Positions 7,624 through 11,712 of a DNA stretch of 42,128 nt are shown piece by piece (the first letter of the stretch is position 1; every line of letters starts with the position of its first letter). Location of the stretch: NCBI GenBank assembly GCA_016781845.1, contig JADDPP010000042.1:1-42128 (forward strand), in the 5' to 3' direction. The notes below the pieces were generated by a model that ran no database searches, was not told where the DNA came from, and saw only the letters and a program-made list of their open reading frames with translations. The DNA is from Rubrobacter sp. (GTDB lineage Bacteria; Chloroflexota; Chloroflexia; Thermobaculales; Thermobaculaceae). A program made the position numbers and the translations under genes.

Positions 7624-8322
7624 ATGCCTGATCGCCCTGCGTGGCGGCTAGGCGCGCTCGGCTACGCGCTCACTCTCGCCGGGTACTGGTGCGCAAAGCT
7701 TGCTCTGCCCGACCCGAGAGCATTTGGGTGCGGCGCCGAGCGCTCGTATCAGCCGGGCGAGCGGATAGACTTACTTGAGCCGTTCGTGGTGCGTGAGGGC
7801 GCCATCGGCGTGTACGGGGAATCCGTGGGCAGGCGTCCGGCCAGGCTGGGCACGATCGGAGAGGGCTGGACAGTGATGCCTGTAGGGACGTGGCAGACGC
7901 GGCCCGGCTTGCGGTTCGAGGCTGCGGGCACGGTTAGGGGCTTGCAGCTACAAAGCTCGGAAGTAGTCGAAGTGGCACTCCAAAACCCAGAGTCCGCCCG
8001 TATGTATACGCAGGGTCTCCAGACGGCGCTCGAGGCCCAGCACTGGGCGCTAAGGCTTTCCGCTGAGAAGACTCCACGGGCTCGGCTGGTGGCGCTGCTG
8101 GTGGCCATAGCGGAGGACGGCGGAGTGCAGCAGGAGAAGGGAGTATACCTCGCGGGCGCGCCGGAGGTGCGGGAGATGTCCGTCCTCGCCAGTGTTTCTC
8201 GTGAGAGCGCGGTTATCAACATCGAGTGGCTGGTCCATACGGGTGTCCTTCGGCGGGAAGGAGGCCGGCTGTGGGCGCCGGACCTCGACCGTCTGAGGGC
8301 TGCCGGAAAGGAGGAGACGTGA
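7624..8322 (+). CDS. Degenerate Crp/Fnr-like transcription regulator
   Basis: The C-terminal part (about 165-230) has a Crp-type winged helix: EMSVLASVSRESAVINIEWLVHTGVLRREGGRLW followed by a DLDRLR end, as in Crp/Fnr proteins. The N-terminal half has faint cyclic-nucleotide-domain features (RSYQPGERI, VREGAIGVY, IGEGWTV) but lacks the phosphate-binding cassette, so no cNMP or Fe-S ligand can be claimed; Fnr cysteines are absent. Start is uncertain: ATG 7624 has no clear ribosome site, while an in-frame TTG at 7495 has GAGGAG close before it but encodes an implausible extension. The gene overlaps the following methyltransferase by 4 bases, which implies one unit. Confidence 0.7.
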   Translation: MPDRPAWRLGALGYALTLAGYWCAKLALPDPRAFGCGAERSYQPGERIDLLEPFVVREGAIGVYGESVGRRPARLGTIGEGWTVMPVGTWQTRPGLRFEAAGTVRGLQLQSSEVVEVALQNPESARMYTQGLQTALEAQHWALRLSAEKTPRARLVALLVAIAEDGGVQQEKGVYLAGAPEVREMSVLASVSRESAVINIEWLVHTGVLRREGGRLWAPDLDRLRAAGKEET

Positions 8323-9116
8323 GCAACAACTCGTTCGACCGCGTTGCCGAAGAGTACGATGCAACCCGCCCAATTCCACGCGGAGCCTCCGAGGAGATCA
8401 CCGATACCATCCTGAGAGTAACGGGCGCGACACAGGCGACCGAGTTTCTGGAGGTAGGGGTGGGAACGGGCCGGATCGGAGCGCCGATAGTGGAGCGTGG
8501 GCACCGCTTCACCGGTGTGGACATATCGCGGAAGATGATGAACGAGATGCTCCGCAAGCTGCCCGGCGAGCGTCCTAACCTCACGTTAGTCGAGGCGGAT
8601 GCAACCGCGCTGCCGTTCGCCGACGCATCCTTCGATGTCGCGCTCACGGTGCACCTGTTGCATCTGGTGGCGCGTTGGCATGACGCGCTCGCCGAGATAC
8701 GGAGGGTGCTCAGGGAAGGCGGTGTGTTCCTTTACGGCTACGAGGAGCACTCCGCGGACGAAGCCTTGCGTGAGGTCTACACCCAGTGGGATACGATTCT
8801 GGCCGGTCGCGGAGTCCAGACTGGGCCGAGCGGGGGGAACCTGCAGGATGTGCTTGCCGAGTTGAAACACCAGGGCGCGCGGTTAGAGACCGTCATCGCT
8901 GCGAAATGGCGCGCGGAGATCACGGTGGGCGAGTTGATGGACCTTTATGAGCGTAGGGTCTACAGCCGGTTCTGGCGCCTGCCTGACGACGTTTTCTCAG
9001 ATGCGGTCGCGGACCTGAAGGAATGGAGCGCGCGGCGCTACCCGTCGGAAGGCTTCGCGCTGTCGGGGGAGTCGGTCTTCGTGCTGACCGTGGCACGCCA
9101 CTGGGCGTCCGTGTAG
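8319..9116 (+). CDS. Class I SAM-dependent methyltransferase
   Basis: The 265-residue product has the SAM-binding motif LEVGVGTGRIG (about 44-54), the acidic residue after strand 2 (GVDIS, 66-70), motif ADATALPF and the UbiE/methyltransferase-11-like stretch ARWHDALAEIRRVLREGG. Substrate cannot be inferred. GTG 8319 is chosen because AAGGAGGAG precedes it by 4-5 bases and it forms a GTGA overlap with the regulator stop; longer in-frame starts lie inside the regulator. The last 79 bases overlap the 3' end of the convergent sigma-region-4 fusion gene on the other strand. Confidence 0.88.
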   Translation: MSNNSFDRVAEEYDATRPIPRGASEEITDTILRVTGATQATEFLEVGVGTGRIGAPIVERGHRFTGVDISRKMMNEMLRKLPGERPNLTLVEADATALPFADASFDVALTVHLLHLVARWHDALAEIRRVLREGGVFLYGYEEHSADEALREVYTQWDTILAGRGVQTGPSGGNLQDVLAELKHQGARLETVIAAKWRAEITVGELMDLYERRVYSRFWRLPDDVFSDAVADLKEWSARRYPSEGFALSGESVFVLTVARHWASV

Positions 9117-11446
9117 AGCGCGTACGCAGGTTCCTCGTCCGGGCGGTGCTCGATGTACACGTGGTCCCCAGCCAGCACACCCTCAGAGCGCAGGAAACTG
9201 CCCAGCCCCGAGATATGCCCGTCGCCGCGATGCAGCCGGTGGGGCGCATTGGCTCGCTCCGATGCAGGCCAGGCGACGGGCAGGTTGCCCTCGACCGGGA
9301 AGAGTGTACGCAGGGGGGCGTTGAGCGCGAGAGCGCCGCTACGCAGTGTCGCGGGAGTGATCAGCACCCGCGCGCAGCGAGCCCCAGGATGCTTGCCGCA
9401 GGGCTCCAGCATCTCCGTAGTTCTGCGCCGTCGCGATGTAGCCGATCGAGCATAATCCTGTCCGGCTAGCTTGTAGTACCCGCGGCCAGCCGGGGAGAAC
9501 TCCGGACGTGTGATAAGGCACCGCTCTACGACCCTTTCCGGCAGCCCAAGCGCCCGTGCCAGCTCGCCCCGGTGTACCGGCTGGTCGGATGCGTGCAGTA
9601 TGTTCACAATAGCCCGCACTGCATCCGGCTCCGCGTCCTGCCACTCCGCCAGGGCGAACACTCCCCGGCCTACTCGGACGAAGGCCGCCTCGTTCAGCAT
9701 AAGATTATGGATTGCATCAACTGACACGGAGACCTCCCCACGCAGCCGCTCCTGTACCACCTTTGCCACCGTGCGATAATGTGAGGGCTTGCCGAGCTCG
9801 CGAAGCGCTTGTATGGAGTCGTCAAGCCGGGAGCGCGTCCACTCCTTAAGGGCTACGAGTCCGGAGGGGAGCACGTAAGTTAGCGGGTTCGCTCGGACGC
9901 GGGCCGGCAGCGAGAAGGAAGGGTACTCCTCAATGACTCTCGGGTAGGCGGTGCTCTTTGCTATCTCCGCGATGAGCTCCGGGACAGACACAGGCTCCAC
10001 CCGTTTGCGCAGGTAAGTGACCAGCGCATCGTCTATCTGTTCTACCTCGCGCACCGGCGCACCCTGGAGAGCGCAGCGCCTGCCGGGTAAGTGCTGGCAA
10101 TCGTCGGACAGGTCAAGGAGCAGGCGAGCAGCGCCAAGTACGTCGAGCTTCTCGATAGGGAAGAGCAGCGGCAACTGGTCGAGCATGTAACTGAACGGTG
10201 CGACACCTCCCACCGCCGCAAGCGCCTCACGGGGACCGCGCGCCAGGCTCTTGACCTCGTCGGCGTGCTGCCGTCGTATCCTCGCGAGCGCCAGCGACTC
10301 CAGCTGCCGTACCCGTTCACGGGACAGCCCGAGTTCCGCGCCAACCTCCTGCAGCGTCCGTATACGGCCGTCGAGCCCGTAGCGCCATCGCACCAGGTTG
10401 GAGAGGCGCTCTGAGGGAAGGCAGGCCAGCAGGTTGGAGAGCCTCTCGTCGAGTGTCGCGACCGGTGCATCCGCATGCACTTCGGTTACGGCCTCCGCCG
10501 CCGAAGGCGCCACCTCCTCAAGCGTCCCGAGAAGATATCGCTCCAGCTCTGAGCAGATGCGCGACACAGAGGCTTTCCCGATTCTTGGCACGCCACGCAG
10601 ACGGTCTTCGCCACCTGTGATGAGGTCGCCTACCGTGCGGATGTCCGCGGACTCCAGCCGCTGGAGCAGTGGTTCAGGCAGGTGTAGCTCTCGCACGCTC
10701 CGGCACGCCACATCTGGGCGTACGGATAGAGCCTCGGCCTGTACGGCGATTTCGGGTTCGGGTGAGGGGGGCTGGCCGATGTCCGGGGGTATGGCCGCCC
10801 GCAGCTCAGCCAGGCGGGAGGGGCCGAGCCCGCGCAGCTCGACCAACTCGGCGTCTGACATGCGTCTGAGCTGGTCAATCGTGAAGATCCCGGCGCGCCG
10901 CAACACTCCGAGGGTGCGCTGACTCAGGCGCAGGTCTCGCAGCATCGCGTCTCCCCCTGGCCATTGCTCCCCTTGTGGGTGTCGTGCCGTCCTGAGCAGT
11001 CGCAACAGGTGCTCCTCGACTTGCTGACGCAGGAGACTCTGCGTCCTTCCTCCCAGCCCTAGAGCGGTGCGAACGTAGAAGGTGCTGGACGCCGCGAGTT
11101 GGCCCAGCGTCGTGATGCCCCCGGCGAGGAGCGGGCGCTCGGCCCACGCCGGCAGACCGACGCTTGTGATGCCTGTCTGTGAGAGGTCTAACCCAGCCTC
11201 GAGCAGCTCCTGGAGGATAATCGGGCTGACGAATGGGTACCGGATGGCCCCGCTACGGAACAGGATGGCTTCACGCGCCATTTGCCCGCGCAGCGTCGCT
11301 AGCTCCTGAGCCGTGAGCTGGCAGGTCGAGAGCAGGTCCTCCTCGGTCAGGGAGGCCAGGGCGCCCAACCGACGGATACCGCACGCATGCAGCTTCTCCC
11401 ACAGAGCGGGCGAAAGGGGGCCTGTAGCATCGGATGCTGAGGACAT
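9038..11446 (-). CDS. Alpha-CTD repeats - sigma-70 region 4 - HARE-like fusion protein
   Basis: The 802-residue product combines parts of transcription machinery. Four helix-hairpin-helix units resemble the RNA polymerase alpha C-terminal domain (about 10-55, 95-148, 172-220, 254-304; clearest LRGLGPSRLAELRAAI and RGVPRIGKASVSRI). A sigma-70 region 4 follows (331-392: RTLQEVGAELGLSRERVRQLE). Two HARE-like winged helices (about 472-537 and 545-602, second ending VRVGRGVFALAEW), another winged helix (605-662), a basic RRRR segment and a beta-rich end (690-785, HISGLGSFLRSEGVLAGD) complete it. Sigma regions 2 and 3 are absent, so it cannot be a complete sigma factor. A role in transcription or DNA modification control is inference. 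ATG 11446 is preferred; an in-frame ATG at 11632 would add 62 unlikely residues that run through a repeat. Confidence 0.85.
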   Translation of the reverse strand: MSSASDATGPLSPALWEKLHACGIRRLGALASLTEEDLLSTCQLTAQELATLRGQMAREAILFRSGAIRYPFVSPIILQELLEAGLDLSQTGITSVGLPAWAERPLLAGGITTLGQLAASSTFYVRTALGLGGRTQSLLRQQVEEHLLRLLRTARHPQGEQWPGGDAMLRDLRLSQRTLGVLRRAGIFTIDQLRRMSDAELVELRGLGPSRLAELRAAIPPDIGQPPSPEPEIAVQAEALSVRPDVACRSVRELHLPEPLLQRLESADIRTVGDLITGGEDRLRGVPRIGKASVSRICSELERYLLGTLEEVAPSAAEAVTEVHADAPVATLDERLSNLLACLPSERLSNLVRWRYGLDGRIRTLQEVGAELGLSRERVRQLESLALARIRRQHADEVKSLARGPREALAAVGGVAPFSYMLDQLPLLFPIEKLDVLGAARLLLDLSDDCQHLPGRRCALQGAPVREVEQIDDALVTYLRKRVEPVSVPELIAEIAKSTAYPRVIEEYPSFSLPARVRANPLTYVLPSGLVALKEWTRSRLDDSIQALRELGKPSHYRTVAKVVQERLRGEVSVSVDAIHNLMLNEAAFVRVGRGVFALAEWQDAEPDAVRAIVNILHASDQPVHRGELARALGLPERVVERCLITRPEFSPAGRGYYKLAGQDYARSATSRRRRTTEMLEPCGKHPGARCARVLITPATLRSGALALNAPLRTLFPVEGNLPVAWPASERANAPHRLHRGDGHISGLGSFLRSEGVLAGDHVYIEHRPDEEPAYALYTDAQWRATVSTKTDSPDSAKPSDG

Positions 11447-11555: not shown

Positions 11556-11712
11556 GAGCAGCCAGGGCGAGTTGAAAGTCGCGGTTGGTGGAGGTGGACA
11601 GGTTGCGGGGTGTTCGCAGACGTAGCGTGCAAGGTCTCTACGCGCTTAGATGAACGCCGAACATCGGCCAGTAGCGGGAGGGGTAGGCCTCCTGAGGTGA
11701 CTTCGCGATAGA
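11556..11712. repeat. Dispersed palindrome-centred intergenic repeat, copy A
   Basis: A degenerate core (AGACGTAGCGTGCAAGGTCT, 11618-11637) is followed by CTACGCGCTTAGATGAACGCC, GCCAGTAGCGGGAGGGGTAGG and GTGACTTCGCGAT, which match the right arms of the copies at 25.7, 27.9 and 41.9 kb. The left arm (CAGCCAGGGCGAGTTGAAAG, 11560-11579) matches the same arm end in inverted orientation. It fills most of the 305-base space between the fusion gene and the LysM gene. Confidence 0.7.

Follow-up and report, generated by a model that had tools for sequence, protein, structure and literature searches.

Region 4 of the sigma-70 factors is normally met within a whole sigma factor, and split arrangements are exemplified by SigO-RsoA and by gp55-gp33 of phage T4. 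In the C-terminal domain (CTD) of the E. coli RNA polymerase alpha subunit, R265 and N268 are the DNA determinants. PglW, the kinase of type 2 BREX, contains an alpha-CTD-like domain together with three winged helices (PMC12839542), and the HARE domain has been proposed to tell modified DNA apart (PMC10853773).

Here, we describe a gene of a Chloroflexota bacterium akin to Thermobaculum, whose product joins modules of these kinds in a single polypeptide. It lies in the window, meaning the whole stretch of 42,128 nucleotides that was analysed, and its open reading frame (9038-11446, minus strand) comprises an ATG start, 802 codons and a stop; the coordinates given in a sequence-only reading of this DNA were correct on translation. 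A TTG upstream, at 11632, could lengthen the frame, and the orthologue alignments begin at the ATG. The order of domains is four units resembling helix-hairpin-helix (HhH) domains, a sigma-70 region 4 (sigma 4), four winged helices and a B3-like C-terminus, located as follows.

9038..11446, minus strand: whole gene, 802 aa (translation; full-length orthologues in same-family genomes)
11261..11419, minus strand: helical HhH-like unit 1, residues 10-62, weak (Pfam SAM_EPH 1.1e-6 at 17-54; helices in the model)
10982..11173, minus strand: HhH-like unit 2, residues 92-155, with the motif STFYVR..LG.GGR (alignment to the host's own alpha CTD; 38% invariant columns)
10787..10951, minus strand: alpha-CTD-like unit 3, residues 166-220 (best RNA_pol_A_CTD stretch 169-217; alignment)
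10529..10705, minus strand: HhH unit 4, residues 248-306, without an R265 equivalent (best HHH_5 stretch 262-302; alignment)
10256..10456, minus strand: sigma-70 region 4, residues 331-397, with recognition helix SRERVRQLE at 375-383 (Pfam, PDB sequence matches, Foldseek probability 1.00 to sigma-A region 4)
10061..10255, minus strand: winged helix 1, residues 398-462 (collinear with a Patescibacteria homologue; model)
9833..10060, minus strand: winged helix 2, residues 463-538 (collinear with a Patescibacteria homologue; model)
9635..9832, minus strand: winged helix 3, HARE type, residues 539-604 (Pfam HARE-HTH 0.14 here, 6e-6 in one orthologue; significant in homologues)
9464..9634, minus strand: winged helix 4, residues 605-661 (collinear with a Patescibacteria homologue; model)
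9092..9415, minus strand: predicted B3-like domain, residues 678-785 (AlphaFold pLDDT 80, pTM 0.73; Foldseek)

No catalytic domain was recognised with Pfam, NCBIfam, the AlphaFold model or Foldseek, and the protein has a near-neutral overall charge (pI 7.3). The AlphaFold model, built from a six-sequence alignment, has a mean pLDDT of 73 and a pTM of 0.46, and is therefore informative about domains but not about their arrangement. In it, helical units extend to roughly residue 306 and are followed by the helices of sigma 4, by four segments as large as a winged helix and by an end rich in beta structure. When submitted to Foldseek, it returned sigma-A region 4, a 57-residue chain of an RNA polymerase complex that fits the alpha CTD, and B3 domains, at a probability of 1.00. 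The open-access literature and family databases yielded no characterised homologue, and sigma-70-type promoters sought near the gene were not found. At its 3′ end, the gene overlaps by 79 bases a Methyltransf_11 methyltransferase gene on the opposite strand (window 8226-9116), for which the same-family loci compared gave no match.

The clear sigma-70 region 4 claimed for residues 331-392 is borne out by Pfam (Sigma70_r4, residues 345-391, 1.1e-10), by sigma-A region 4 chains in the PDB (residues 334-393, 1.5e-9) and by Foldseek. The absence of sigma regions 2 and 3 is confirmed as well: neither has a Pfam match in the protein, and a genome-wide search with the region 2 model (PF04542) found no place on the contig carrying the gene. 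The recognition helix, R-E-R-x-R-Q, is intact. In the form R/K-E-R-x-R-Q, this part of region 4.2 is kept in all six orthologues, in the relatives from genomes G143 and G004, in an Abditibacteriota protein and in 20 of 21 Patescibacteria relatives, and the six RpoD-like sigma factors of the host genome share these recognition residues. In region 4.1, the orthologues deviate from genuine sigma factors, with RRLIRIL against EREQRVL. An intact recognition helix combined with missing regions 2 and 3 is consistent with the proposal, drawn from sequence, that the protein could read -35-like DNA without melting a promoter.

Four HhH units had been proposed for residues 10-304. Four helical units are indeed found. 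One is a clear alpha-CTD match, unit 1 is weakly supported, and unit 2, with its unusually conserved STFYVR..LG.GGR motif, is an atypical repeat of HhH-like kind. The Pfam model RNA_pol_A_CTD (PF03118) matches the protein at 9.4e-17 in two stretches, the best at 169-217, and HHH_5 matches at 4.1e-10, best at 262-302; both models, like Sigma70_r4, match all six orthologues. The alpha N-terminal assembly domain has no Pfam match in the protein, and the NCBIfam rpoA match covers the CTD only, far below its cut-off. Alignment to the host's own alpha CTD identifies R177 in unit 3, invariant in all six orthologues, as the equivalent of R265. Because this residue has a counterpart in unit 3 only, and N268 has none in any unit, the alpha-CTD-like units are poor candidates for readers of UP elements, and the suggested UP-element-like recognition is weakly supported.

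The description of the following segment as HARE-like winged helices can be sharpened: the model contains four winged helices, of which the third alone can be called HARE by profile, and this through its relatives. In the protein itself, HARE scores far below the Pfam cut-off (13 versus 25.9 bits), and the matches reach 6e-6 in one orthologue and 1.1e-7 and 7.5e-12 in two homologues. Against the RNA polymerase delta model TIGR04567, whose curated cut-off is 42 bits, the HARE domain of a Patescibacteria homologue narrowly passes with 43. The C-terminal beta domain can be refined to a predicted B3-like fold. Of the 28 best Foldseek hits to a separate model of the C-terminus, almost all were B3 domains, with probabilities up to 1.00; since their E-values do not pass 1e-3, the strength of this model-based assignment would lie in consistency, not in statistics. 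The restriction-enzyme domains LlaJI.R1 and BfiI were also returned. The B3 domain is dispensable, because one orthologue (G002) stops after the fourth winged helix.

What we regard as the main new and unexpected result, as judged by sequence comparison, is a core family shared with Patescibacteria. Residues 333-660, comprising sigma 4 and the four winged helices, are collinear with a 383-aa Parcubacteria protein (BLASTP E 6e-26) that itself passes the Pfam cut-offs for Sigma70_r4 (8.6e-14) and HARE-HTH (7.5e-12). With a profile from the joint alignment, the core was detected at E <= 1e-25 in 138 of 240 Patescibacteria genomes taken evenly across the phylum, mostly in proteins of 340-400 aa. 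In all 21 loci read, the core gene directly precedes a membrane protein and a TrwB/VirD4-like ATPase, which are fused in some loci, and SecDF-like genes, named by reading, are present in 14. Some Patescibacteria genomes carry two sigma 4-HARE copies; example loci are L108 7299-8450 and L134-L153. A quick tree search of the core parts the Thermobaculum-type from the Patescibacteria proteins (SH-aLRT 98), with the placement of the long branches G143, G004 and Abditibacteriota unsure. The family is apparently unstudied: no description was found in the open-access literature on HARE, sigma 4 and Patescibacteria, nor in the family databases consulted.

Within Chloroflexota, five of the six genomes sampled from the same family contain orthologues, full-length or nearly so, with 38-53% identity, and the sixth (G004) has a diverged relative of 769 codons with alpha-CTD, sigma 4 and HARE matches. 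Outside the family, 54 sampled genomes of the same class gave sigma-4-level matches only. Across 400 sampled Chloroflexota, searched with profiles of the whole protein and of the part after sigma 4, strong matches beyond sigma 4 were limited to the gene's own family and one 1612-aa protein (G143), and six further genomes matched the HARE part alone. In addition to alpha-CTD, sigma 4 and winged helices, the 1612-aa protein (L086 6920-11758) has a related B3-like region and unannotated stretches at both termini; by eye only, its N-terminus resembles a sulfur-binding domain. The earlier reading looked to Chloroflexota for the architecture; the core itself belongs mainly to Patescibacteria. Scanned genome-wide for peptides, the 802-aa protein alone gave no match, and a GTDB genome scan with the post-sigma alignment recovered three orthologues and the 383-aa Parcubacteria protein. 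Among plasmid homologues, only the Abditibacteriota relative extends well past sigma 4. A viral origin was considered and rejected: matches in IMG/VR and phage records stayed at the level of sigma 4, and no viral fold matched convincingly over the full length.

Within the family, the locus occurs once per genome in a conserved gene order and seems to have been inherited vertically. An NDH2-like oxidoreductase, an ABC-F ATPase (named by reading) and a small regulator-like gene without a Pfam match are followed by the 802-aa gene in convergent orientation and by a xanthine/uracil permease, and this order is conserved as far as genome G003. Such conservation among same-family genomes marks the gene as a stable part of the chromosome rather than the cargo of an island. 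The conserved neighbourhood (NDH2, ABC-F, permease) contains neither BREX operon genes (PglX, PglZ, BrxC, BrxL) nor the pair of membrane protein and VirD4-like ATPase.

Connections to defence systems were also encountered. The PglW profile matches residues 251-419 at 3.7e-8, covering only profile positions 807-978 of 1403, and the G003 orthologue matches PglW at 2e-15 in PADLOC and at 9e-11 in NCBIfam (BREX_PglW). PglW-like proteins of the sampled Chloroflexota match the nuclease/kinase half and gave no convincing tail similarity in the compared, perhaps incomplete, stretches, so the PglW link comes from two curated profiles. The Abditibacteriota relative, which combines sigma 4 with a weak HARE match and is annotated as RpoD, opens a BREX-like operon on plasmid AP024153.1 (L110 13509-27866), in which BrxL (4.4e-107) accompanies a DrmMI/PglX-type methylase, a protein with DUF4007 and a weak match to PglZ. 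On a Rhizobium plasmid (L047 5785-8079), a sigma factor-like HTH protein lies in a cluster annotated as a CxC ATPase DNA modification system.

Our preferred reading, held tentatively and at somewhat less than even chances, is that the 802-aa protein is a non-enzymatic, multi-site DNA-binding regulator that acts on transcription through -35-like DNA, RNA polymerase or both. To the core of sigma 4 and four winged helices, HhH/alpha-CTD-like units would have been joined on the N-terminal side and a B3-like domain on the C-terminal side. The sigma 4 helix would most likely bind particular chromosomal sites, namely -35-like hexamers, aided by the HhH, winged-helix and B3 domains, and the bound protein could recruit or hinder RNA polymerase through sigma 4 on the beta flap, the HARE domain or both. 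Because sigma regions 2 and 3 are absent, it would be unable to open a promoter alone; members of the core family are probably DNA-bound transcription regulators that cannot start transcription by themselves. In favour of a regulator are the exclusive use of DNA-binding or polymerase-type modules among its recognisable domains, the maintenance of the region 4.2 recognition residues across orthologues and relatives, the collinear core together with a Patescibacteria HARE just above the delta cut-off, and a locus whose inheritance resembles that of a cellular regulator. However, the DNA target, the polymerase contact and the direction of the effect are parts that we infer, the recognition motif also belongs to the HTH fold, region 4.1 deviates, the key alpha-CTD residue is confined to one HhH unit, and the genes beside relatives serve DNA handling and defence, not transcription. 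A broader claim, that the unnamed sigma 4-HARE class, carried by more than half of the Patescibacteria sampled and elaborated in the Thermobaculum lineage, is a global or general RNA polymerase-associated factor occupying -35 elements without promoter opening, seems to us rather doubtful.

The main rival, unlikely on balance but a serious contender, is a reader of modified or foreign DNA in which HARE, B3 and HhH domains sense the state of DNA, that is, an orphan sensor related to the PglW tail and fixed in the chromosome. The PglW matches, the BREX-like operon headed by the Abditibacteriota relative with its methylase and BrxL, the B3 and HARE folds, the resemblance to LlaJI.R1 and BfiI and the HARE proposal (PMC10853773) lend circumstantial support to the DNA-modification sensor of the sequence-only reading, but the gene stands alone among conserved housekeeping neighbours down to G003, with no conserved methylase or nuclease partner and no sign of mobility. 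The Patescibacteria operons suggest an accessory DNA-binding protein for DNA transfer, segregation or translocation, which we consider improbable here: the ATPase homologue of the host genome lies on another contig (G000 C308:17385-18644), G001 and G003 gave no match among the three gene-bearing same-family genomes searched, and the operon may reflect co-regulation only. A nucleoid-type structural binder with no sequence-specific or polymerase role, quite improbable in our view, would explain the many DNA-binding domains and the lack of an enzyme, but not readily the near-neutral charge and the strongly conserved recognition helix. Least probable is a split sigma half, with region 4 given in trans to a region-2 sigma factor without region 4; the free-standing region 4 with its intact helix would suit this role, but no orphan region 2 was found in the host genome (97% complete assembly). 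The region-2-only candidates C8, C126, C67 and C239 were rejected as partners, each having its own C-terminal region-4-like segment on reading.

If the regulator reading is true, a widespread protein with a -35-reading helix but no melting parts would represent a different mode of promoter control; alternatively, promoter-reading parts may have been reused for DNA surveillance. The core is widespread among the Patescibacteria, a very large and poorly understood group, which makes its function worth testing; one member group, Saccharibacteria, can be genetically manipulated (PMC12857230).

Compared with known systems, the protein resembles RpoD/SigA in the sequence and predicted fold of region 4, but it lacks regions 1, 2 and 3. 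MzaA, the sigma-70-like protein of the MZA defence system, likewise holds a region 4 of the same type within a large protein, and its match is confined to that region. With PglW, it shares an alpha-CTD-like domain followed by HTH/winged helices and the profile match at 251-419, whereas the NERD nuclease, kinase and iSTAND domains and a BREX operon are absent. The HARE fold recalls the RNA polymerase delta subunit, although here it sits among sigma 4 and other winged helices, and the acidic delta tail was not seen. The predicted fold of residues 678-785 is like that of B3 domains (plant VRN1/TEM1/FUS3; BfiI, LlaJI.R1), despite 10-19% identity and an unrelated context. Finally, the Patescibacteria sigma 4-HARE protein of about 370 aa is without HhH/alpha-CTD units or B3 and belongs to an operon with a VirD4-like ATPase, but has in common with the 802-aa protein sigma 4, four collinear winged helices including HARE, and an intact recognition helix.
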